From NCBI GenBank assembly GCA_947034885.2, contig OX344754.2, forward strand, positions 13,906,501 through 13,970,500: 64,000 nt of DNA, written 5' to 3'. The notes under the pieces are model-generated. The model was not told the origin of the DNA, ran no database searches, and saw only the letters and a program-made list of their open reading frames with translations. This DNA is from Thuidium tamariscinum. Lineage: Eukaryota > Streptophyta > Bryopsida > Hypnales > Thuidiaceae. Position 1 is the first letter of the stretch; every line of letters starts with the position of its first letter. The translations under genes and the position numbers were made by a program. Positions 1-59,163 of this stretch are shown here, one piece after another.

Positions 1-290
1 GACACACAAACCCACCCCACAAAAAAGAATTGAAGTATAATATAAGGTCTTTCACTTGCAGCACACACAAACCCGCCCAACAAAAAAAATTGAAATATAA
101 TATAAGCTCTTTCACCTGCACCACATACAAACCCACCCAACAAAAAAAATTTGAAGTATAATATGAGTTCTTCACCCTATAGCGTACACAAAGCCACCCA
201 ACCAAAAAAATTTGAAGTATAATATAAGTTACTTAACCTACCAACAACCAAACCCGCCCAACAAAGAAATATTGGAAGCATAAGATTAAA
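1..290. repeat. 60-bp tandem repeat in transposase intron
   Basis: About five head-to-tail copies of a unit close to 60 bp run from the window edge to about 290. Each unit contains an ACACAAACCCACCCAACAAA-like stretch, an A-run, GAAGTATAATATAAG and a TTCACCT-like tail. Copies differ by scattered substitutions and 1-bp indels and become less alike to the right. On the minus strand the block lies immediately downstream of a GTAAATTT splice-donor-like site that ends the transposase ORF, so it is probably intronic. The left end of the array is outside the window. Confidence 0.85.
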
Positions 291-2210
291 TTTACCTAAG
301 AATTGACGTTGCACGTTGTCCTGCACTCGATTGAAATCCTCCTGCGTCACAAACAGATGTGCATCAGTGTTTTTGTCGTGGCATTGAGCAAAGGCAGCTC
401 CATTGCCAAAGTCAAACAATAAATGGCAAAGGCCACTCTCTCCAGGAAGCGGCTTCCACAGTAACGGAATCTCACCATAAGAAAGCAAAGTGATGGCACT
501 GTAGCAGTGAAAATCTACCTTTTGGAAGGCAGTGGAGGAATCCATAAACATTCGGGCCAATTCTTCTTGGCACAATTTCACTGCTTGAAGAAAGTCACAA
601 ATGAAAATATCACAAGCCTGTGACAGCTTAATCAAGTAGTGCACGGCGTTATCAAGGGAAATAAAACATGCCAATGAAAGCAAGACCTCGATGTCACAAA
701 GTAGGTCAAAGTTATCCGCAGCACCAGCATGCGGTTTGTTACCAGGTGCCGCTGTCATGTCCATGCCCATTTTAATGAGCAAGGTGCGATACTCCTCCAA
801 GATTCTCGTGGTGGGTTCTCTCATGGAGATCCACCGCATTTCCACATTTTGAAGCATTTTGTTGCCCTTAGTTTCCATGAGATCAGCAAGCCTCTGTAAC
901 TCAACGCAGCGCTTATTGCTTCGGCAAAAATAAGCATAGATAGACTGAAAAAGGCCTTTGAGACAAGAAATGAGGGGAAATTTGGACGAGGTCTCGACCA
1001 CCAAATTCACATAGTGACTGACACAACTCGCCCTAATTAGGAATGGAGCCCACTTCTCCCTGATTTGGGTGGTGACATCCGATTTGGGGCCCTAGAATGT
1101 GTTGACTCCGTTAGCCCCAAAACTTACCACTTTAGAAGCGATTTCCTCATGGTTCAGGCCTCCTTCCCCCATGAGCGCATGCACTATTACCTTAGTCAAG
1201 TGATCAGCTGTACCACGATCTGAAATGCAAGACAAATGCAGAAGATGCGGCACTCTCTCCCAGTCGGACACAACATACACATGAACGCACAACCACAACG
1301 TCGTATCGACTGTTGTGACCTCATCAGCAGAAATCGAAATGATCCTAGCATCTCTAACAGCACGTCTCAACACTCCAAGGACAGACTCATGCAAATGCTC
1401 TGCCATTTCCCACATGGTTGTCTGTGACCAATGTTTCCTTGGGAGATTTCTTACCTTGAGTTGCTTCAGCAACTACTGTTGACGTTCAAAATCACAAAGC
1501 AGATGACCATGATTCAAAATGTGAAGAAGGGTAGAAAACTGGACTACCTTTCTCTTGTACTCACCCTCCAGACCCCCAACCAATTGATTCACAACCATGG
1601 CAGATTTCTTTCGCCTTGCCCATTGTTTCACAAGCTATTGGTGCTTGTAGTGAGGCTTGACAAAAGAATCGCCTTTCTTCAGATCGGGGTAGGGGATGCC
1701 ATCCTCCTTACAGACGCGCTTATCTTTATGTTTCTCTAAATTGTCCAACTTGGGGACCATCAACTTGCGCCTCCAGTTGATGCAGGTACAACTGCGGCAA
1801 GCAATGCCAACAAGGTCCCTAACATCATTGAACTCCCCTTCCGCCCATGGGAATTTTCACGCCCAGAACTCTTGCCAGTGCCTTGTAATTGTGGCCAGAT
1901 TTGTTTTCCTTCTCTTCAGCGCAGGGGTGGGTGCAGCAAGATCAGTGACCTCGGGTGATACAGGAGACACGACAGTGGCCTCCGAGATGGGAAAATCACC
2001 GGGTGCTCCAAGGAGCGAGTTTGTGAGTTGAGTTTGTGACACATGCGTAATGGAGTCACCCGCCATCGGAGGATGCGGGAGGTATTTGCCCACACCACTC
2101 GTGTTTTGACTCGATCCGAAAGTCTCTACCTGAAAATTATCGGGGAGTTTCAGATGTGGCGCCATCGAAGACCTGCAATCCAAGCCAACAAAAAACCCCA
2201 ACAGTACCAA
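291..2210 (-). pseudogene. hAT-type transposase remnant with four in-frame stops
   Basis: One continuous minus-strand reading frame runs from 2210 to about 291 and is broken by stop codons at 1857-1859 (TGA), 1635-1637 (TAG), 1473-1475 (TAG) and 1092-1094 (TAG). The pieces at 2210-1857, 1472-1092 and 1010-291 lie in the same frame, so the breaks are point mutations, not indels. The N-terminal part has a basic stretch and a C-x2-C...H pattern like a BED/TTF-type DNA-binding finger. The middle has ISISADEVTTVDTTLWLCVH, as in the catalytic RNaseH-like region of plant hAT relatives. The next part carries the FGANGVNTF/GPKSDVT segment and a helical region. The frame ends at a splice-donor-like GTAAATT near 291, and the rest of the element is off the left edge. 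Family assignment rests on recognised sequence style; no alignment was possible. Confidence 0.7.
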
Positions 2211-14559: not shown

Positions 14560-15165
14560 CGCGTGTTCTCTTATCCAGCATACATCCCTATGCAGATACG
14601 TTGTTTGTTTGTTTGAATGTTTGTTTGTTACGTTGAGATCTCCCGGACCGTGAGTGCCCCGGGTGCGTGTTTGGTACCGTCGGAAAGCCCTCAGCGAGGA
14701 GGGGTGCACCGGCTTTGATTCATGGTGTTCCAACCTACGGCATGAAAGTTATTGAATTTTGAAGTTTCTATATGTTACGTTGAGATCTCCCGGACTGTGA
14801 GTCCCCCGGGTGCGTGTTTGGTACCGTCGGAAAGCCCTCAGCGAGGAGGGGTGCATGGGCTTTGATTCATGGTGTTCCAACCTACAGCTTGAAAGTTATT
14901 GAATTTTGAAGTTTCTATACATTAAAAAAATTAGACTGTGGCAACGGCACGGGCCACCCTAGTCCCCTATGAAGATGCGTTGTTGGTTTGTTTGGATGTT
15001 TGTTTGGATGTTTGTTACGTTGAGATCTCCCGGACCGTGAGTCCCCCAGGTGCGTGTTTGGTACTGTCGGAAAGCCCTTGGCGAGGACGGGTGCACGGGC
15101 TTTGATTCATGGTGTTCCGACCTATGGCATGAAAGTTATTGAATTTTGAAGTTTCTATACATAAA
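14560..15165. repeat. 147-bp tandem repeat, three copies, GC-rich core
   Basis: Copies start at 14627, 14774 and 15014. Each contains GTTACGTTGAGATCTCCCGG, GGTGCGTGTTTGGTACYGTC and GGAAAGCCCT, then GTGTTCCRACCTA and an ATTGAATTTTGAAGTTTCTAT tail. Copies 2 and 3 are separated by an extra ~90 bp that repeats the TGTTTGTTTG leader found ahead of copy 1, so the full unit is about 240 bp with one deletion. The GC-rich core stands out against the AT-rich surroundings. Confidence 0.85.
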
Positions 15166-16136: not shown

Positions 16137-19100
16137 ATGGCAAGTAGATCGCAGTTGAACTTACGTTTTTTCGTTTATTACCTGGTTCTCGTTGTGGTGG
16201 TGGTGGATGCGAATGATCTCTACAAGGTTAGCAATCTCTTCCTTCCACGTTGTTTGAAATTCTTTGAATTGAGTACCCGTGAAGACTTTTAATCTCCAAA
16301 CAGGAAATTACGCACGGGAGATTTGAAATTTTTTATCGTATTTTACGTAGCTGAAGGTCTTATCTGCAAGGGTTAACTGTCGTAGCGCGACTCGTTAAAT
16401 AGTTGAGGAACCGTGCAATTCTGTGGATGATCTGGCCTTACTTTAGATTCTATATTGGTAAGAGCAAATCTTCTACGTATGGCATCGAAGACAGGTCTCT
16501 GACTTATGTCAATATCATGACAATTGGATGCTGGAAATATTCATGATTTGTTACCGTCTGAGTGGAATTTTGGTTATTGGATGTCAGGTTTTAGGAGTTG
16601 ATAAGAATGCCAGTGAACGAGATATCAAGAAAGCATTTCACAAGTGAGCTCCTCTTAATCCTGCTGATAGTGCGCTACGAAAACTCTCTTGCCGTATTAA
16701 TATGTTCTGTATCAATTAGGTGGAGAACCAATGGTGTGCTAACCGAATAAGGATCCTATTGACCGTATAGTTGACAGATTTTACACCTCATTATTATTTT
16801 AAGCATTATACCGTAGTAAGTATCATCAACGATTCTGATAATTATGCTCCTTTCTCCTTGATACAGGCAATCTTTGAAGTATCATCCTGACAAAAACAAA
16901 GCAAAAAACGCCCAATCAAAGTTTGAGAAAATTAGTCACGGTAGTTTTCTAACCCGCCTGCTTTGGACGAATGCATTCGTGTATGGACTTGGGTTTTAGG
17001 TTTTTTGATTACATTATGTCATTCATCTGTATCTCAAGAATGTGAGGCGAAATCCGTTTGTAAGTGTTATTCAGGTAAATCTGTACGCTTTTTCCAAAGA
17101 GTTATGCATGATAACTACACATACTTCTATAATTTTTATTCACTCGTGTTTTACATTTGGTGCAGCATATGAAGTGCTCTCAGACGCAGAGAAGAGAAAG
17201 CAGTATGATTTGACTGGTGATGAAAAGGGCCAAGGATTTGGAGGATCCCAGGGTGGTTATGGAAGCGGGAATGTCGGCGGGCAATATGCAGGTCATCAGT
17301 TTCAAAGCGGTAGTCCTTTTTTCCAAGCCGGCGGGCCAGGTGGTCGAACGTTTACCTTCACGTTTGGCGGTCCTAACCAACAGGCTGAAGAAGGTGGCCA
17401 CCAAAGATTTTCACAATTTTTCGGCAATTCTCAATCGCAGCGTCAATCACGGCCTAGGCAGAATTCAAAAAGGAAATCTGGAGAACAAATGGGTTGGGCT
17501 AGAAACATGTACAATAAGTTCACTGGGAATGAAGAAGGGAATCCTGACTCTGCTTTTGGGAACATAGGGAGTTTTGGAAGCTTTGGAAACTTTGGGGGGG
17601 GAATGTTTGATAATCTTTTTAGCTCCTTCACGGAGGGAAGTGGAGAGACGAGGGAGGGAGGAAGTCGAGAGCCTAAAGCGAAGAGCCGTGATGCTCGGGT
17701 GACAGTGGATTTACCCCCGGGGATTGAAAATATGAACCCCGCAAAATTCAAAACACAGGTGCTAGGGACAAGAAAAATTTCTTGGGCTGTCTTGTATTTT
17801 GTACCAGATTATCCCGGAATCAATGACCGCCTGAAGCTCCTGGCATCTTTTGCCGAAGAATTGAAGGGAATTCTCAAGGTGAGATCAATGCCAGTATTTG
17901 CCATGCCCTTCTATATCTGAGATGTCAAGTTTTTGTTATATTTTCCTTTTTAGCGGGTTTGTTTGCATTGTATACCGAGCAGATCTTCGGGTCTGCTATC
18001 TTGGTTTTTCATTATTCTATTATGAACATCTTATTCTGGATCTTAGTTGGTATATTGTTAAACGACTATGTCGTTCCAGGTTGGTGCAATCGACTGTGAA
18101 AGCCATGGTAAATTCTGTAAAGAGCAAGAAGTTCAATTATTTCCCAAGCTCCTGATCTATCCCCTAAGAGCGGAAGGAAGGTCTAAACCAGTGCCACACC
18201 TTGGAGATTGGACAATTAAAGCTTTGTTGAAGTTCTACAACCTGCAGTTTTCCCCTCTGATAACTTCACTCACTCACCAAAACTTTGTGGAAGCTATGTC
18301 GAAGAATTAGGAGCGACCTTGGGCTATTTTGGTCAGAAAGAACAAGGATTTACCAGTTGCATGGCTCGCCATGTGTGGAGAATTCGAGAGGCGGATTGAC
18401 TGTTATGAAATCCGGGTAAGAAATTTCAGTGCTATATCGTCTCGTTTGTTCTCTACCTTATGGATTGATCTCTGGGAATCCTCTAGTGGACTCTGTTACA
18501 TCCTTAAATTATTCTACGATTGCCAGCGCCATTGGTTTGAGCTTTATATCCTTTGCTTCCAAACGAAATTTCAGCGTCGAATTTTGAGTCTAGGTAACAT
18601 TTGGGTCTTCAGCTTTTTAAGCTTCACTATTGTTGATGCTTGCAAGTTTTAATTCTTGCAGGTCAATGACGAAGAGGATCCTATTGCTAAAAAACTTGGA
18701 GCAAGAGAATTTCCTACAGTCGTGGGACTACTATCTGCTGGAGAGCAGCTTCACTTTGACAATATCGTATCTGACAAGTCGCTTCCGAAATCTGTCGGAG
18801 CTTTGAGAACGTTCATGGAGAAGCTCGAAAAGAAGGACCGTGATTTGGAAAGAACCCAAAATGGTTCTGAGCCTGTTTCTTATTTGACCCAAAGGAATAT
18901 GAAGAAAGTGTGTGGACCAGAGGCATCGTTGTGTATTATTGCCACCTCAAAATCTAGCCAAGGAGAGGCGAAAGCCAAGCTGATTCTTCACGAGGTTCGC
19001 TTTCCTTGAACATGTTCCAGAGGTTCAGTACAGCAATATTTTCAGGCATCTCTTACAGAAGTGTGATTGAGGCAAGGCTCTCATTTACAAGTTGGGACTA

Positions 19101-19407
19101 ACAATCGGTTTAAATGTTTATGTTTTTGGTGCAGATCTCGCAAAAGTCGCTTGTTAGAAAATCTCATGGATCACAGCCTGTGTCATACAGCCTGGTTGAC
19201 GCAGCGAAGCGGGGAACCTTCATGAAATCATTTTCTGCAATTGATCTCTCCAGTATCGACACCGTTGTGGTGGCCTACAAGCCTCGCAGAGGCAAGTCGG
19301 CATTGTACAGGGGTTCATTGACATTGGAGGGGGTTGAGGATTTCGTCGCGAAAGCTCTGGTTGGTGATCTTACTTTCGAGCCAGTATATCAGGCACCAAC
19401 ATTGTGA
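16137..19407 (+). CDS. ER J-protein with thioredoxin-like region (ERdj3A/TMS1-like), interrupted by TAG
   Basis: Seven exons: 16137-16226, 16588-16643, 16867-16940, 17166-17878, 18080-18415, 18662-18994 and 19135-19407, all GT-AG with exact phases, 625 codons. Residues 1-26 form a signal peptide (hydrophobic FFVYYLVLVVVVVDA). A J domain with HPD at 55-57 and DAEKRKQYD follows, then a Gly/Phe/Ser-rich region of ~150 residues. Next is a thioredoxin-fold-like part containing CESHGKFCKEQEVQLFPKLL, without a CxxC active site, and further thioredoxin-like segments to the end. This layout matches plant ER J-proteins of the ERdj3A/TMS1 type, which recruit BiP in the lumen. Oddity: codon 388 is TAG (18308-18310) inside exon 5, and the conserved frame continues directly after it (ERPWAILVRKNKD). 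The stop would remove the C-terminal 40%. No plausible intron skips it. This is either a young pseudogene, a sequence error or a truncated allele. Confidence 0.8.
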
Positions 19408-22400
19408 CATAGTGTTCTCTCAAACAGCCCTGTGCATATTTGCATGAGATCAGTATAAGCGGCATTAATCGCATTTTTCCAAAATTGCCCAATTTGCAAG
19501 TGTCAGCATCCACTTTTGCCGTCCTGCAGCAGCTCAAATTGAAGATACGAAATTGTGGCCAAGATATCCATTGAATACGTTCAAAGCACATGCTGTGTAA
19601 GTCTTAGTATGGAGTAGTTCACACAACTAATAATAAATTAAAGACGCTGTAAACTGTTCAATAATTACCTGAGTCATGTGGCATCGTGATGCTTCTTAGA
19701 TACATGCCACTCAAGCGACTCGCTGCAAATACACTCTGAACGCATAGTAATCACACATTTGTGGTGGGGGTGAGGGACACATTGAAAAATTCTTTCCTAA
19801 TTCATCCTAGAGAATGGATCTATTCATTTAATAACTCCCTATGCATGATTGGTCTTTATTAAACTTTCAAATATCAGAGACCATTTGTATTAATGCAAAT
19901 GTTTATAACATACAATTTTGCAATTGTGAGGGGTTATTGTTACAATATATTACTAAACATTTTATAACATCAATATATCATTAAAATATTAATATGAGAT
20001 ACCATATGAACTATTGATGTTATTTTATTCAAATAATACTGTCTTCTTGATATACATAGCAAAAGAACAAATCACCACAAGTTAGATTTTGCAAAACCTA
20101 AATTCTATACATTCACTATCTTTTATTAACATCATTGTGTTGCACATCTATAATACTACTACATAAATCTCAACAATTTATATGGACATTATTTGCCTAA
20201 AGTGTAATTGTAAAGAATTCAAAATGTCATCCAATTGTATACCTCATCCATATTATCTAATTTTTTTAATACCACAATTAGAAACCTAGACCAAAAGAAC
20301 ACTTCAACATTAAAATTTTAGATGCATCTTACTAACAACTAGTCAGTTATATTTGAAATGAATAAAAAAAAGTTGCCTTTTCTTATACTCACCAATAGTA
20401 TACAATTTATTATTAACCTTTTTAAGACTCAAACATTCAAATATAAAATATAAAACAACGGTATTCCCAAGTAGATAAAATCTTTTTTTGTCTAAATGTT
20501 TGTAGATACTTTAGTTCTTTGATATTTAAGTTTTCATAACCTTTTATTTGCAAATGTTCATTGATCCAATGAATAAATGTATGTTTCACTTGGAAAATCT
20601 ACTTTTCCAATTCAATTTATGATCCTTAATAAATGACTTTAATAAGTTAAATAAAAATATTAAAAATTGTCATAAATAAAACTTAAAACTTCACACTCCA
20701 TGTAAAGTTTATACTCCACTAAATATTTTTGTCAAGTTACAAATTTTCAATCTAAAATTCCTTGTTTCCAAATTTATTTCCAAATTTATTAAAAAAGTAT
20801 TTGAAAATATTATTGAAACTTCGGACTACTCAGTATTAGGGAGTTAATTGTAGAACAAAAATATGACTGTACACAACTAGGGTTTTATTACACAAACAGT
20901 ATGTACAAAAATGAAAATTATTATTAGTCATTTTCTTCTAATGTTCCACCCCAGGCCATTCCAATGGCAAGTATAGTAAGCATTGTCAATAATTTGTGGT
21001 GTGGTTCAACCTTGGAAAGATTGTCGCCTTGGTGATAGTTACTCAATAATAAATGATTCAATTTTTAAACCCATAGGTGCATTATTTGTTTTTACAGAGT
21101 CATCCATCAAGACATTTGTAGTCCTCAGAGTCATTTCAGGGTTAATGTCTATCGCCACAGAGGACACGGTAGTAACTTAGAAGATCTACTGGTAAAAAAT
21201 TATTAAAAAGTAGAGGATTTCATTTTACGGAACACTTCAGGAGTAGCCATTTCAAACCATTTGAGCATGAAAACACCGCAGTACTTCAGGGGTTAACTAA
21301 GTACTCAGTACACCTGTGAATTAACCTCAAGTCTCCTTGACTTCAAGGTATCCAACTTCATGTTGCCTTGATTCTTATCAAACGCCAAGAGTTCACAGAG
21401 AGGACAGCCTTGATGTCTCCCTTACATTTATCTTGCAACGAAACAGCCTAATCAACAGATGAGTTCACTTGTGCCAAAATAACAATAATGGTACTAACAG
21501 TAATATTCCAACACACCAGGGGCGGAACAAAACTGGAATTTCATCATCAATAATGGTTCGTATTATATGATACGACTACTTCTTTACATCCATCCCACTC
21601 AAGGATTCTTAAAAAAATGTGGAACCTACCGGTTTGCCCCAACCCACTTGGAATCCCAATGGTTTACTGTTCCCTGCCTCCGAAGCTGCAACTTCGCAGC
21701 ATTACTGCCACTGTCCGCCCGCTCACAAATTTTCAACTCATACAAGCCGTTCTGACATTCAAAGGCTTCCGAAGCAAGCAGCGAGGATCAAAACTGCACA
21801 TCAAATATATACAGGAACAGAAGTGCACATATCAACTCCCTGTGTCAGCGGCAGTCAGAATTAACTTTAAACCCCGTCAGTCAAGCAACGACTTCGACGC
21901 CACCCACTTCGAACTTAACACTGCCATGAACAAGCCTCCTCGACACCCTCCATGCTTGTGGTCTGGGATTCTGACTGAAGCGAAGTACAGCCAGACACGG
22001 AATTCAAAACAGAGGTCTTCTCTTATTCATGAGCGCATGTGGGATCTCGCTTCTCTCCGCCGAGCAGCTTCTGCGAGCCTCGTGCGATGAAGTACTTGGC
22101 GATACTGTTGCGTAAGAGAATCATAAGAGGGATTAGAAGAGAGTATCACAAGAGAATACGAAAGGAATTCAGGGAGAGACTACATCAACCATACAGTCCA
22201 TTAGAAGAGGCTTCATTGACCATATAGGTGAGAGTTGTAATTTGTGCTAAATGCAAAATAGTCCGTCTATTGACATTTCGTTTCTTGCAATTGATTTTCA
22301 GCTTCCCTTAAAACAAATGTGCAAACTTTGAAATGCGCAAGTTGTAGGGAAAGGCTCCAGGTCCCAGGTTCCTGTGTGGAACCTGAACCTTCCTTTATGG

Positions 22401-22417
22401 TGAATGAAGACTTTACA
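19408..22417. other. AT-rich spacer
   Basis: No gene is supported. The piece 19800-20900 is very AT-rich and featureless. The piece 21560-22200 has higher GC content and a long plus-strand ORF (21617-22090), but no domain or splice evidence. It probably covers the downstream flank of the minus-strand gene that ends at 22418. Confidence 0.4.
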
Positions 22418-25400
22418 TTATAGGTTAGAATCTACCGAGCAGATGGAACAGAACCGTCGACCCAAGAAATCTTCACGACGGCACCTCACTTCAAGGTGAC
22501 CATCCACAACAATCGTGCTTACCGTAATCAGTTGTTCCTTCATAAGTTGCTCCTGGTAATTCTTCGCATCCTCGGCAACCTTGTCGCGCCGACGTTTCTC
22601 TTGGGCCCATTTGCCAAACAGTAGTTGGATCTGCGATGCATTGGGGCTTCCCCGGAATCCAACCGCAAGAGCCATGGCCTCGTCAACAGTGATCTCCCTG
22701 TAGCCCTTATCCTGGAACGCCTCTAGCAAAACCTCTCGAGCCAATATCAAAGCATTTTCCTCCGTGTCTGAGAGCTCGGACTCTGGTAGAAGTGAACTAT
22801 GATGATGGACGGAGGGCTTCTTCGTGGGAGGAGGTGCCTGTTGGGCATCCTGTGTCGGACTAGCAGACTCTGTACGGTTCGGAGATCGACCCCCCTAGAA
22901 AGTGAAAAAGTACGGAGAGGTCGAGTCAGAGTCTCCCAACGATGTCCATTGTCCAAACCATCATAAGACCACAAGGGTGTAATGGAAAGTCTACCATCAA
23001 CATACAATACAGGTGAACTTTGTACCATTTCCTACAACAATATAGAAACTTGCACCATCTTCCATTTTGCACATTTATTTTGTATGGTGAATAAAGCATC
23101 TAATGTACTGCATGGTCATGGAACCTCCACTTAATTCGCCTTGAAGATGGAAATGATAAGTGTACATACATACATACCGCGGTAGGATGAGCATGTGAAG
23201 AGGAGCTCCGGGCAGCCTTGTCACTTCGACGTCGTATGGGATTGGCCCAATTGCGAAACAGCTGCATGATCTGCATCGCATCTGGGTTGCCGTGGAATCG
23301 GGCCGCTAAAGCAACAGTCTCGTCAAGAGTAATTTGCCTACAACCCCACTCCACGAACACCCGTCTCAGAGTCGCTCGAGCGGATCTCCGAACCCAGCGT
23401 CTCGAACGTTTCTGATACAATCAATAGGTACCATGTACCATGAAAAAGATTAGGCCAAGTCCAAGGCAGGCCTAAATTCGGCGAAACCACATGCATACAG
23501 GACCTTCAGACTTCATACATCCCAGGTAGCTTACCCCCCGATTGTCGTTCGGCTGAGAAACACCAGGCGGTTGCTGGAGAGGCAGAGAGATGGACGCAGC
23601 CAACGGTTCGTCGTTGGCCAGCTGCTGAACAACAGATCGCTGCCCATCGGTGCCCTTGTCCACCACACCACCAGAAACAGAAACCCCCGCGCGCGCCGAA
23701 CGAAGTCTGTTCCGAATGGCTTTGCTGAAAAAGGTCTGGTAAAAGAGGATAAGCACACATGGTCCAGGAAACAAAAATTCCATATCTGCAAGATGACTAC
23801 AACTATGGTCATGGCGGCGAAGATAACATCATCACTATCCCATGTATCATACCTTCAAAAATTGGCAGATATCTCCACAGGTCACGTGCTTCAAGACTCC
23901 AAACTTGTCAATGTTCTTTAGAGAATTCAAGGCCTTGTAAGTGAGGCCTGAGTCTACCATCAAATGCATGAAGAGCTCCGAGGTGAACAATGAAGAAATC
24001 ACATGACTTGGCATAGTAATAGCCACAGAGACTGATTGACGCATGCCTAACCACCACTCCCTCCTCCTCCGAGCCAAGGCACATCCTTCACTACTCCATT
24101 CTGCAAGATGCAATCTATTGCGCCAACTAACCGGTAAAGCCACGCCCTCTCTACATTCGCCGCTGCAAAAAAGTCTGGAAAAATATTCGAAGGCGTTGGA
24201 CGGAGTCGCATCGTCACATGGCTTCCCTACCAGTGGACTCTGCAATAAAGCCCCATCCTGGACAACTGCAGGAGGTGCCTCCTCTACAGTCCGAGGCTGT
24301 GGCGAACACTCCGGCTCAACCCCAGGAATGGAATGTGGACTGGTTGGAGTGATATCAACATGAGAAGATTCCGCAATAACGGGAGACAGGACTAAATCAA
24401 CTGTCTTCCGCTGCCGACTACAAACAGAGGTGTCCGCTCCCGCAACCGGAGGTAAGACTAACTCAAAATACTTTCGAGGATTTCTACCATGAAAGGGTGT
24501 CGAGAATTTCAGGACGATCTCCTCTTTGGGAGGTGGCAGAGAAGGAAGAACTTGCGGCATGGACCGACGATGACGCTTTCGTGATGGGGTATCCAGATGT
24601 TCCATAGATAGAGGGCTACGGTTGCCAGCGCACATATCTGGCCGACTACTTGGACCAACCACTTGAACCTCTTTATCAAAGAAGGGAGCCTCCTGCACAT
24701 CCAAATGACAATGCCGACAACCCCACCAACTAAGGGTAAAGATCATCTTTAAAAAACATCATGGCTCGAAGACTGTAGACGCATTACCCAGAAACCACCA
24801 ATAAGAAAAGGAATACCCGACGCTTCATGCAGGTTCGATGGATATGAACAAACCATATCCTGACCAAGAACGTCGTGGCCGTGCCCGTCCCAGCACCAAA
24901 GCCGGAGCATTCGCCAAGGGCCAACATAAAGAAGATGATCACAAAGCTACCATTCACATTCCATTTCTAACATGCAAAACATGTATGAACCACCTTTACA
25001 CAAAAACAGACTGTTCTGACATACCACACGTCGTGCAAGCAATACATGTAATTCAAGATTTTATCTGATGCAACAAATATGTGTGAATGCCACCACCAAG
25101 CTCGAAGGCTCCTCCTACCTTGTTTATGGTCTCTTCTTGTGCACTTTTAATTTCTGTCTCCTTTTCCTTCTTCCGAATCGGATGGCAGGATGAAAAGTAT
25201 TTCAAAACGATCTCCTCATTGGGAGGTGGCAGAAAAGGAATGTTGTCTTGCGGCATGGACCGACGAAGACGTTTTCGTGACGGGGTATCCAGGTGCCGCA
25301 TGGGGTCCGGGGGAGGGCTGCCGTAAATCAAATCCGGCCGTCCAACAGGTACTTGGACACAAGCATCCTTTGTTTCGGTCTCCTTCTCCAGCTCTGGCTC

Positions 25401-25631
25401 AAGAGACCATTTCTTTGAACTCCAAGAACTCCAAGAACTGCCACCACCGAGAGCTCTTTGAACGCGGAGTTTTGTTCTTGGCTTCATGGTTAAAATGTTA
25501 GGGGAAGTCATTATCATTGTACCGATATTTAGAAGCTCAGCATCAATGAAATCTAATTCAACTGCAATCGCTTCTATGCAGAGAACTTCCTCGGTGGGAA
25601 CTCGGCTGCCATTCCTGCTCTCACGGATCAT
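22418..25631 (-). CDS. Unrecognised protein built from two duplicated modules, 5 exons, ~754 aa
   Basis: Exons on the minus strand are 25631-25119, 24692-23853, 23735-23535, 23411-23178 and 22894-22418. Every junction is GT-AG and every intron is phase 0. Exons 1 and 2 each carry a related ~60-residue block: RPDLIYG...HLDTPSRKRLRRSMPQ...LPPPNEEIVLKYF and RPDMCAG...HLDTPSRKRHRRSMPQ...LPPPKEEIVLKF. Exons 4 and 5 each carry a second ~55-residue block with the pattern R.ITLDE..ALA..F.GNP.A.QI..LF..WA...RRR.DK. The basic SRKR-RR cluster suggests nuclear localisation. The rest is Pro/Ser/Glu-rich, and exon 2 ends in a hydrophobic helical region that continues into exon 3. The last exon may instead be spliced at 22522 (GTAAGC). 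I do not recognise the family and infer no function. Regular exon phases and conserved residues between copies argue that it is a real gene. Confidence 0.65.
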
Positions 25632-25685
25632 GACGCAGAATTTTCTCTGAAACAGAATCTGCAGGGTGCTGAATCCTCGTTTCAG

Positions 25686-25931
25686 ATGCCGCTCGGAGCT
25701 GATACGGAGAAGCAGCAGTCTAAAAGGACTACCAAGTCTTCCAAGTCCGCTAAACGAACAAAACTGGCCACGATTTCTATGGAGGATTACATGAGAGTGT
25801 TCAACCGTCTCACCGATGGCAAAGGAAACGTCGTGCAACCGAATTGTGATCGCAAGTTGTTCACCCTAGCAGAGCTCAAATCGGTACGACGCCGTTACGA
25901 AAGTCCCTCTCAAACATATCCTCTGGCATGA
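25686..25931 (+). CDS. Short basic ORF opposite the duplicated-module gene, doubtful
   Basis: An 81-codon plus-strand ORF starts at an ATG right after a TTTCAG acceptor-like site. It encodes a Lys/Arg/Ser-rich start (SKRTTKSSKSAKRTK) followed by MEDYMRVFNRLTDGKGN and LFTLAELKSVRRRYE. It lies just upstream of the ATG of the minus-strand gene, so it may be chance sequence in that promoter. The composition is more protein-like than the opposite frame. No family is recognised. Confidence 0.2.
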   Translation: MPLGADTEKQQSKRTTKSSKSAKRTKLATISMEDYMRVFNRLTDGKGNVVQPNCDRKLFTLAELKSVRRRYESPSQTYPLA

Positions 25932-26577
25932 CCGTGTTAGAAATTTTTCTGACGAGCACAGACATGAACCAGTTGAGGCTATTAGTGTCGACAGTTTTCA
26001 ATTTATCAGGCCCTCTTGCTAACTTCATACCACCGATTCCGTTATCATCCGTTGTGACAGGTTTTACGACTTCATGGCTTAAAGACTTCGCCGGGGGCCA
26101 AGGTTCTTACGTCTGAACTTCATACCCCTCGATCTTCTTTGAAATTTTGCCAAGTTTCATGTAGAACATGGCTCCTGAAGTAGTTATGAAAATCAATGGT
26201 CAAGTATTAATGCGATCAACCCTGGGATCCCTTTCGATTTTTAAAATTCTATCGGAACGTCCTACGCTGACATAGCGGCCATATCACCATACTCGCCGTG
26301 ATTGATAACTTAGATCTCGTGCGTTTTAACGTTCACAAAGGCCTCCACCTTCACCAAGTGCAATTGACTCTAACTTCTTTCTAACGTCAGTAAGATGCTT
26401 GGAGAATTTGAGCAATAGAATTCGATTAATCTTGAAACGTTATCGTCCAGCAACTCTCACACAGCTTTCAGACTGTTTTATTGGTAAAAAAAAAGGGACA
26501 CACATTGGCAATCAGTTGTGCGGCCTAAAAAAACACCAAATTAAACAGCCCTAGGTAGCCATATTTCTAACACGAGT
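25932..26577. other. Short spacer
   Basis: No gene is seen. It probably holds the 3' flank of the small membrane-protein gene ending at 26578 and the promoter of the duplicated-module gene. Confidence 0.4.
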
Positions 26578-27074
26578 TCACTGGTCTAGACTGGTCTGGT
26601 CTTCCAGGACTGGAATTGCAATTTCAAGAACAGCATCGTGATCGCGTTCCATAGGAGATTCGTCAGTGCCGCTGGAAACTGGAAGAGTAAGAGGAGCAAT
26701 CTGAGCATCTTGAGGAGGAACAGTGCCGCTGGAATCTGGAAGAGTTAGAGAAATCTGAGCATCTTGAGCATCATGAGCATCTTGAGCATCTTGAGCATCT
26801 TGAGCATCTTGAGCGGGTGATCCAAAGCACAAGTTATAGCAACCTTTTAAGGCTGCAGTTACAAGCCCGGTTACAAGAAGGAATAGCGTGGAAGACACCA
26901 TCTGAAAAAAGAGCTCCACGGTCCAGTCTATTTGTGAGAGCCTGCTCAAAAATCCACCCCTGCAATTTTTTGTGACATTAGAATCGAAAGCTGCGCTGCA
27001 CGATAAAAAAACTGATAAAAAACATGATAAAAAAATGAAGGAAAGAATACTAACTGTTCATCGTCGTCAGCCAT
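26578..27074 (-). CDS. Small single-pass membrane protein with AQD repeats, 2 exons, 133 aa
   Basis: Exon 1 is 27074-27055 and exon 2 is 26959-26578; the GT-AG intron closes the frame (phase 2). The product starts MADDDEQGGFLSRLSQIDW and has one clear membrane segment, FFQMVSSTLFLLVTGLVTAAL, at about residues 25-45. Next comes a run of Ala-Gln-Asp tripeptides, then two copies of an LTLP(D/V)SSGT motif and an acidic end. The tripeptide run is encoded by a 9-bp minisatellite, so length may vary between individuals. The N-terminus has a good start context. No family is recognised. A tail-anchored-like or signal-anchor topology is inferred, with the repeat domain on one side of the membrane. Short length keeps confidence moderate. 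Confidence 0.5.
26756..26814. repeat. 9-bp coding minisatellite (AQD)n
   Basis: Six to seven copies of TGAGCATCT, with one variant carrying CATCATGAG, lie in frame in exon 2 of the small membrane-protein gene and encode Ala-Gln-Asp on the minus strand. A partial copy recurs at about 26700. Confidence 0.85.
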
Positions 27075-31928: not shown

Positions 31929-33742
<1,814 letters not shown>

Positions 33743-56901: not shown

Positions 56902-59163
56902 TCATGCACCTTCAGCCAAAATCGTATTCACAGCATCTCTGAAAGCATAATAATCCTCAAGTTTATTGTAGACTTGATGAGATATTCGAGCATAGGCCAC
57001 CACTTTGGAGCCGTCTGTCTGCGACATTGATTCTCCTGCGTAACATAAAGGTACTTCGACATGAAACTCCTCTCGAAGACGTGACCGCATCTTCAAAGCA
57101 TCGTCCTGAAAATGCACTCGAAGTGTCAAGAAATGCTACACTGATAAAGGCAAACACTGTGGACAACGGAAGGCTATGTACACCTAAATTGACAATCCAT
57201 GAGAATTAGTATCCACAGTATGACACCAATCAATCAATGCGGAACGGCAAACACGTAGATATGTCACAGTAATTTTCAATCCACCGAAATTCCCCATCCA
57301 CCTCGAAAACTCATCAATAACTGGCATTAACACATTCTAAAATGTTTAGGATAAGGTACAAGTTTGTAAATTAAACAAGAGCTCCTAACAATTACCAGTA
57401 ACAATAGCCTCTTTCAAGATCTTCTAAGCAGCATCATAAAGATAATCTTCGCCACTAATCATGATTATCTTTATGATGCTGTCTAAAACTTCTTGAAACA
57501 GTGTAATTTTTCAGAAAACAGTGTTCACTGGATGATACAGCATTGCTGATACGGCAGTTCTGAGAGACTTCAGAGGAGCACCTGAGAAAGAATGTTCAGT
57601 CCTGGAGGCAGACCAACCATAGCCATCGAAGCAAAGAGATCAGGGGGAGCCCCTAAACACGTTCCCCAAGACCGAGCGAGCATCTGGCCCATCTCCACCA
57701 CCCCCTCATGATTGCTCTTTCTATAGACCTCCAAATTTCCGAAAAACTCCTTCATGAACTGAATTGCCTTGGGTACGGACAGAAAAGCACTGTAATCGCG
57801 AGTGCCCACCCAGTACGATTCACTAAGGAATCCGGTGCCAAAGTTATGCGACACGACAGGGTGATGCAGACGAGCAAGGTGGTGAGGCTTGGCGTGGAAG
57901 AAGGCGACCACCGGAGGCGCGAACAACCATTTGTGAACATTCCCCATGTAGTAATCTGCGTCAATGTCGTGGACATTGATGTCCACGCTTCCAATTGCGT
58001 GCGCTCCGTCGACGAATACCTGCTCCACTCCATGAGTGCGACATAAACGAATGAGGTCACGAATTGGTAAAACGATGGATGGCATTGACGTAACGTGGTC
58101 CAGGACGGCGAGCCTAATGGTCCGAGCTGGATTCTCGGCCTTTTCCTTGCAAAGAAACTCCTCGAAGGTGCTTAGAATCTCTTCGTTTGACCCTACAGGA
58201 AACGGCATTTTGTATTCGAGGAGATGCGCACCAGCCCGAGCACAATAGCCCTGGAATCACAACAAGCCTGAATTAAGGATTTAAGATGCAAATCCTGAAC
58301 TCTAGGTTTTGTGACCACTATTGAAAACGACGCTGCATAATAGAACGGAATTCCTTTTTCAGACGAATTACCTGGAAGCATTTCCTCACGGCGCTGTAGG
58401 CTGAATCAAACATAACAATGGCGTCCCCTCGCGCATACCGACCCTCCAGGAACCCCCACATCCAATCCACCGCGATGACGGACGCGCCAGTGGTGGCATT
58501 CTCCAGCAACACGACCTCGTCCACATCAGGAGCGCCAATCAGCTCCGCCAATCCTTCGCGGGCTGCCAAAAACCCGTGGGACAGAGGCTCCCAGCAGAAA
58601 GCGTCGGGGTGGCGCAACCACTGCAAGTTCCATTGCACCTGCTCCTCCAGCACCCGCTTCGGCGCACTACCGAAGGAGCCGTTATTCAATCGCGCCACTC
58701 CTGGATGATGATGGGCAAATTCCCGCTGGAGGATCACTTCTCGCGACTCCCCGGGAACGTTCACCGCGCCAGGTGCCGCGGGGTCGTCAAGCTCCGCAAC
58801 AAGTGCACCTCGGGGAATCGTTGTGTCAGAGCTTTCTGTTGCGTCCGGGGCGGGCACTCCGAAGACAGGCGCAGGAGACGAAACAGGCTCACAAGCTTGT
58901 CCGCGCGTGGCGTGATCGACTGTGTTCTGGCCCTGCTCACATGAGGCTTGTGTCCCCACACCACAGGCGTCGTCAGTTCGCCCGGGCTCATCATGCGCTT
59001 GGGACGGAACCCTAATCCGCCCATTCTCGGACCCTGCAGCCTGAGAAACCTGGGCGGGGCCTTGCGCACGGCCATCATCACGCCCTCCATTCGCAGGAGA
59101 CGCCGGGGCGTACGCTTGCCGTGATCCGCCATGGCTGCCCTGTAAAGGCTCATCCGAGGACAT
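56902..59163 (-). CDS. L-cysteine desulfhydrase-like PLP enzyme, 3 exons, 554 aa
   Basis: Exons on the minus strand are 59163-58372, 58250-57582 and 57105-56902, GT-AG and phase 0. After a ~140-residue extension, the class V aminotransferase fold begins at REFAHHHPGVARLNNGSFGS. It continues with DVDEVVLLENATTGA, LDHVTSMPS, VFVDGAHAIG (PLP-contacting Asp and His) and NVHKWLF, whose Lys is the expected PLP Schiff-base residue. SYWVGTRDYS and ARISHQVYNKLEDY close the domain. This matches the plant LCD type (At3g62130-like), described as releasing sulfide from L-cysteine; substrate is inferred. The long Gly/Ser/Pro/Ala-rich, GC-rich N-terminal extension is not found in the Arabidopsis protein and has no clear targeting signal. 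An in-frame Met at 59226 could add 21 residues. The catalytic domain is intact. Confidence 0.88.
57429..57481. repeat. 19-bp hairpin in intron 2 of the PLP-enzyme gene
   Basis: CAGCATCATAAAGATAATC at 57429-57447 is followed by a 15-base loop and its exact inverse at 57463-57481. It lies within the intron between 57582 and 57105. It could be a processed hairpin or a tiny foldback element. Confidence 0.75.

Follow-up and report, generated by a model that had tools for sequence, protein, structure and literature searches.

The window analysed here is a 64,000-nucleotide stretch of contig 6 (13,906,501-13,970,500) of Thuidium tamariscinum, whose genome comprises 363 Mb in 19 contigs, and it carries a five-exon gene on the minus strand at 22418-25631. 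The best reading of this gene is a fast-evolving or decaying double-homeodomain gene. It would be one member of a small and changing family for which a divergent WUSCHEL/WOX-type homeodomain is diagnostic, an explanation that we regard, with the history and role proposed below included, as rather probable. The WOX family is a family of stem-cell regulators.

The block shared by exons 4 and 5 is predicted to be a divergent WUSCHEL/WOX-type homeodomain, where the fold is taken from a model of exon 4 and the link to WOX runs through a diverged relative of the gene on contig 9. The first WOX-like homeodomain is located at 23202-23408 (minus strand) and has three predicted helices, with helix 3 reading LFRNWA and its Asn kept; the second, at 22526-22768 (minus strand), has LFGKWA in helix 3, with Asn replaced by Lys. 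The two blocks are 46% identical over 63 residues. The fold prediction was made for the exon 4 copy alone, and homeodomains were ranked above other folds, with three helices obtained.

The contig-9 block aligned without gaps over 65 residues with the genome's own WOX homeodomain, L051, a score reached in 0 of 1000 shuffles, and the background of this match was clean over 660,510 reading windows. The gapless match to the 65-residue L051 domain agrees with the greater length of WOX homeodomains; exons 4 and 5 lack two residues ahead of helix 3. The features that the contig-9 block has in common with WOX are the RWxP start, HG before helix 3 and F-x-N in helix 3. Its z scores were 11.8 and 5.2 against two WOX domains and about 0 against five other homeodomains, while those of the blocks in the first and second contig-1 relatives were 7.9 and 3.8, and 2.9 and -1.4, respectively, against the two WOX domains. 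For these comparisons, 7 of the 22 PF00046 matches were used, and the 15 omitted were near-duplicates, partial matches and two below cut-off. The direct comparison of exons 4 and 5 with WOX was not significant, and only the contig-9 relative provides the link. One and the same WOX protein was picked out by the fold of exon 4 and by the sequence of the contig-9 block.

The five exons are open, with GT..AG borders and phase 0 at 4/4 introns, and they give 754 codons and a stop. Exon 1 as read occupies 25119-25631 (171 codons; shared with a second copy of the gene only over 25119-25404), and it is followed by exon 2 at 23853-24692 (280 codons), exon 3 at 23535-23735 (67 codons), exon 4 at 23178-23411 (78 codons) and exon 5 at 22418-22894 (158 codons and the stop), all on the minus strand. 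The exon-2 donor, ..LK|gta, lies at the identical codon in the window gene and in two diverged relatives on contigs 1 and 9; no donor was found at this site in a third relative near 43.3 Mb on contig 1. The exon carrying the block starts after AG in phase 0 in the window gene and in all three of these relatives, at positions 1 to 3 codons apart. Two splice sites of the window gene, the exon-2 donor and the exon-4 acceptor, thus agree with diverged relatives, and the five-exon, all-phase-0 gene is real as an open reading structure. The first-pass annotation is upheld in this respect, but not in the start of exon 1, since the identity to the second copy ends at 25404. The C-terminal region of exon 2 (23853-24275, minus strand) is also present in the relatives on contig 1 (E values of 2.2e-10 and 1.5e-6) and contig 9 (5.7e-8 and 0.0195); a search for exon 3 in these two relatives gave chance-level matches only.

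The presence of two duplicated modules was borne out by local BLOSUM62 scores of exon pairs compared with 1000 shuffles. Exons 1 and 2 scored 165 (best shuffle, 60) and exons 4 and 5 scored 129 (best shuffle, 50), so that both internal duplications are far beyond chance. Among the other eight pairs, the lowest count was found for exons 1 and 5, where 24 of 1000 shuffles were as high, and the rest ranged from 345 to 931. Module 1 consists of a nuclear-localisation-like basic stretch and LPPPxEEIVLK. From the DNA match between exons 1 and 2 and their alignment, its first copy, HLDTPSRKRLRRSMPQ..LPPPNEEIVLKY, was placed at 25196-25295 and its second copy, HLDTPSRKRHRRSMPQ..LPPPKEEIVLKF, at 24503-24599 (both minus strand); the DNA identity is 87% over 86 bp, and the alignment covers about 100 bp. 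The similarity of exons 4 and 5 covers about 170 bp, with 65% DNA identity over 52 codons, a nonsynonymous divergence (dN) of 0.41 and a synonymous divergence (dS) of 0.73.

Against the contig-9 relative, the differences at codon positions 1/2/3 were 0.46/0.31/0.77 for exon 4 (61 codons; dS saturated), 0.42/0.33/0.71 for exon 5 (52 codons; dS 2.8) and 0.50/0.32/0.71 for exon 2 (28 codons). This pattern argues clearly for past constraint on exons 2, 4 and 5, and for exons 4 and 5 it supports the earlier proposal that the blocks are domains under constraint, as far as the past is concerned.

The second copy lies inverted on the same contig at about 13.6933-13.6975 Mb, about 234 kb away, and shows 98.1% identity over window positions 21226-25404. 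Pieces of window 17885-21227 are 95-99% identical to contig 6 13.6976-13.7200 Mb, in inverted order and with different spacing, and they belong to the same rearranged segmental duplication. The identity ends at 25404, within exon 1, and the first 76 codons of the exon (25405-25631, minus strand) lie past this breakpoint. Upstream of it, METTEEERDRDTQNNENREEEHQKEKD leads without a frame break into LEPELEKETETK in the second copy, whose reading frame gives a coherent acidic start. In the window, 25458-26469 has instead a 94% match at contig 6 13.7343-13.7353 Mb, and 25577-26264 (plus strand) contains five consecutive intron-free pieces with 81-91% identity to contig 6 14.4042-14.4089 Mb. Because these pieces match with the intervening gaps missing, 25577-26264 is probably a processed retrocopy, antisense to exon 1. 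Since the match ends at 25404 and sequence of another locus and of an antisense retrocopy lies beyond it, residues 1-76 and the ATG at 25631 are probably foreign to the gene rather than original, unless the second copy was altered or the assembly is wrong here. Farther along, window 26664-26814 has short tandem repeats of 57 and 9 bp in a minus-strand open frame reading QDAQDAQDA.

The genome searches scored the best candidates only, and further relatives may exist in addition to the three diverged ones found. The first two lie at contig 1 38.2037-38.2093 Mb and contig 9 6.0340-6.0397 Mb, and an alignment of 5.68 kb between them shows 92.5% identity. Each contains one homeodomain block together with a central region and the C-terminal region of exon 2. 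They have stops at differing places and one shared stop, which may be intronic. Among 1542 coding-like sites, 31/24/27 differ at codon positions 1/2/3, and the two loci behave like dead duplicates (pseudogenes). The divergence between them is about 21% near the left end and declines gradually, with no sharp edge there, to about 4% in the middle, a course that gene conversion would produce. The third relative is a long open gene near 43.3165 Mb on contig 1 (about 43.3156-43.3233 Mb; L027, L028), in a very AT-rich stretch of 26% GC. The central region lies there in a 448-codon open frame (E value of 8.7e-17), after which comes a 1141-codon open frame; the matches of the next part (0.03) and of the block (0.002, in a search of its own 20 kb only) were weaker. 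No Pfam row above cut-off was obtained for the scanned parts of this gene (448-codon frame, DUF7575 with an E value of 0.33). The central region, with the motifs ECH..WC and ERKH(K/R)xxKN, is common to the three relatives and absent from the window gene. Each relative has one homeodomain block, behind the central region, compared with two in the window gene. A scan of viral contigs with exon 2 found no relative, and a plasmid search with the central region of the relatives gave no match.

Several of these results weigh against a double-homeodomain gene of WOX type. The 5' end of the window copy is chimeric, and the comparison of the two contig-6 copies reveals no detectable selection since the recent duplication. 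The WOX helix-3 signature WFQN(R/H)KAR, which is present in L051, L054, STENOFOLIA and WUSCHEL, is replaced by LFRNWA in exon 4, LFGKWA in exon 5 and FFRNWA in the contig-9 block. The WUS box TLxLFP, which is not found in every WOX member, has 0 occurrences in the 754 residues. No Pfam Homeodomain row was obtained for exon 4, exon 5 or the blocks of the three relatives, where the control L051 reached 61.8 bits.

The strongest alternative is that the window locus is a pseudogene, that is, a rearranged copy without the promoter and start it once had, open through youth alone, and its probability falls only a little short of even. The changed 5' end at 25404 is consistent with it, as are the deaths of the contig 9 and first contig-1 relatives, with their stops and nearly even codon-position differences. 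The two contig-6 copies differ by 11 nonsynonymous and 5 synonymous changes in 679 codons, which looks neutral: 11.5 amino-acid changes were expected in a random-change simulation, and no stop arose in 57% of 4000 trials. Their divergence is also alike in exons (16/2038), introns (11/942) and downstream sequence (9/1185). However, there are 0 indels in the 2038 exon bases, while introns and downstream sequence have several. This lack is the sole hint of recent constraint, and indels are also commoner in AT-rich non-coding DNA. The intact exon frames and splice sites and the in-frame acidic start of the other copy likewise speak against a pseudogene. The window copy may be losing function.

A second alternative, which we consider unlikely, derives the family from a DNA transposase, with the central region as a degenerate RNase H-like core, the homeodomain as a former DNA-end-binding part and the window gene as a domesticated or decaying fragment. 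The presence of the central region in three loci and its absence from the window gene would fit, as would the fact that two loci are dispersed dead copies over a 5.66-kb unit; its residue pattern is, we presume, reminiscent of transposase catalytic spacing. On the other hand, the relatives' central region had neither a Pfam row above cut-off nor a PDB row at E values up to 10, few copies were found among the best candidates scored, and self-comparison of the contig-1 unit showed no inverted repeat joining its two ends. The structure model of the relatives' central region had a mean predicted local distance difference test score (pLDDT) of 45.4, too poor to judge an RNase H-like fold, and no RNase H-like core was found in the window gene. 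A match of the blocks to a known transposon protein had been named as counter-evidence to an undescribed protein, and none was seen in the libraries searched. About 6 kb downstream of the 43.3-Mb gene, a transposase fragment, DDE_Tnp_1_7 (PF13843), is located at L028:9110-9586 (Pfam E value of 1.4e-11).

It is improbable that the exon 4/5 block is another three-helix domain (Myb/SANT, SWIRM or new) that merely resembles homeodomains. The contig-9 match is gapless and WOX-specific on a clean background, with non-WOX homeodomains near zero, and the identical WOX protein was singled out by fold and by sequence. The Pfam scan of the five exons and five relative pieces gave no row above cut-off, so that the original statement that neither block could be assigned to a known family holds for that library, but the exon 4/5 block is nevertheless assigned to the WOX-type homeodomains through the exon 4 fold and the contig-9 relative. 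A pooled block profile scored 16.3 against all homeodomains, 14.0 against WOX and 13.5 against non-WOX, where the five highest of 100 column shuffles gave 11.6-17.7, 13.8-19.7 and 12.4-15.5, respectively. Against four WOX sequences, the pooled alignment gave an E value of 0.01 and the contig-9/contig-1 pair 0.0014 (17% probability). The Pfam candidates for the blocks, all below cut-off, were SWIRM (0.047), DUF3045 (0.21), GemA (0.12) and DUF7740 (0.36); the PDB sequence search returned six aldehyde dehydrogenase rows for exon 4 (E values of 0.5-1) and a proteasome subunit (0.79) and a TetR regulator (1.3) for the block alignment, and all were rejected.

That whole-exon duplication through phase-0 introns built the gene, as first proposed, is least probable of all: every intron is indeed in phase 0, but both DNA similarities lie inside exons and never run from border to border, and two sub-exonic duplications of different age weaken the argument from intron phase.

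For the double-homeodomain gene, the simplest history would start from an ancestor with one block and the central region, the one-domain form being ancestral, and lead to a window gene without the central region. The homeodomain would have been doubled first and module 1 later, as the DNA identities of 65% and 87% suggest, and the 5' end of the window copy would then have been joined to retro-pseudogene sequence, after both doublings.

The protein contains five K[KR]x[KR] motifs, where the shuffle mean was 0.68 and 0 of 2000 shuffles had as many, which suggests that the product is, or was, nuclear. Given the degraded helix-3 recognition signature (LFRNWA, LFGKWA), the two homeodomain folds may bind nucleic acid, with a specificity that is altered or weak, or alternatively serve chiefly in contacts with partner proteins. 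In the numbering that we take to apply, Asn at position 51 of helix 3 is kept in exon 4 and is Lys in exon 5, and position 53 is Ala. These residues suggest that DNA binding was altered or lost. The most likely role would be to assist or compete with ordinary homeodomain regulators. The strict EAR pattern LxLxL occurs 0 times in the 754 residues, and a relaxed alternating hydrophobic pattern occurs 8 times where 3.4 were expected, a count reached in 56 of 2000 shuffles and too weak to use.

Elsewhere in the window, 14626-14919 holds a 147-bp unit in two tandem copies (95%). A 304-codon open frame at 177-1091 (minus strand) has no Pfam match and by eye is presumably like a hAT-type transposase or a host derivative. 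A gene fragment with a DnaJ end lies at 17009-17920 (Pfam E value of 0.003, below cut-off), and ordinary gene fragments of a cyclophilin and a class-V aminotransferase lie at 32287-32841 and 57570-58256, respectively.

The window gene resembles WOX (STENOFOLIA, WUSCHEL and the genome's L051 and L054) in the predicted exon 4 fold and in the gapless 65-residue match of its contig-9 relative, and differs from it in lacking WFQN(R/H)KAR and the WUS box, in having two domains per protein and in its N-terminal region. The DUX proteins of mammals, as far as the sources consulted in part describe them, also have two homeodomains in one protein. DUX homeodomains are of a different class from WOX. HOCHOB (Caenorhabditis ceh-91/92/93) has, in the portion of the source consulted, paired divergent homeodomains that are difficult to recognise from sequence, and helix 3 is changed in one of them; however, its linker of about 17 residues is conserved with cysteines, while the window gene has about 60 residues and an intron between the domains (PMC4448998). 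There is no sign of a common origin of the two.

The consulted part of a survey gives 11 homeodomain classes for plants, with no double-homeodomain class among those named (PMC4901127); double types are mentioned, in the text available, in Dictyostelium and Caenorhabditis. No plant double homeobox gene turned up among the papers listed in the open literature searched. Two WOX-like homeodomains are unusual in one plant protein, and to this extent the suggestion of an undescribed architecture stands, although it is tempered by the chimeric 5' end and the undetectable recent selection. More tentatively, and short of being probable, the gene may represent a new plant homeodomain type outside the 11 described classes, in which a WOX-derived domain was captured by a large unrelated protein and doubled in a shortened descendant. 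This would give a double-homeodomain regulator to a lineage whose WOX genes are said to be confined to the WOX13 clade.

Should sister species turn out to have intact, expressed orthologues, plants would possess their own double homeodomain, a parallel case to HOCHOB of nematodes. On the same condition, bryophytes would have WOX-derived genes beyond the clade including WOX13, to which bryophyte WOX genes are restricted according to the part of the source consulted (PMC9434304). A standard domain library can miss such divergent homeodomains, and therefore plant homeobox counts may be low.
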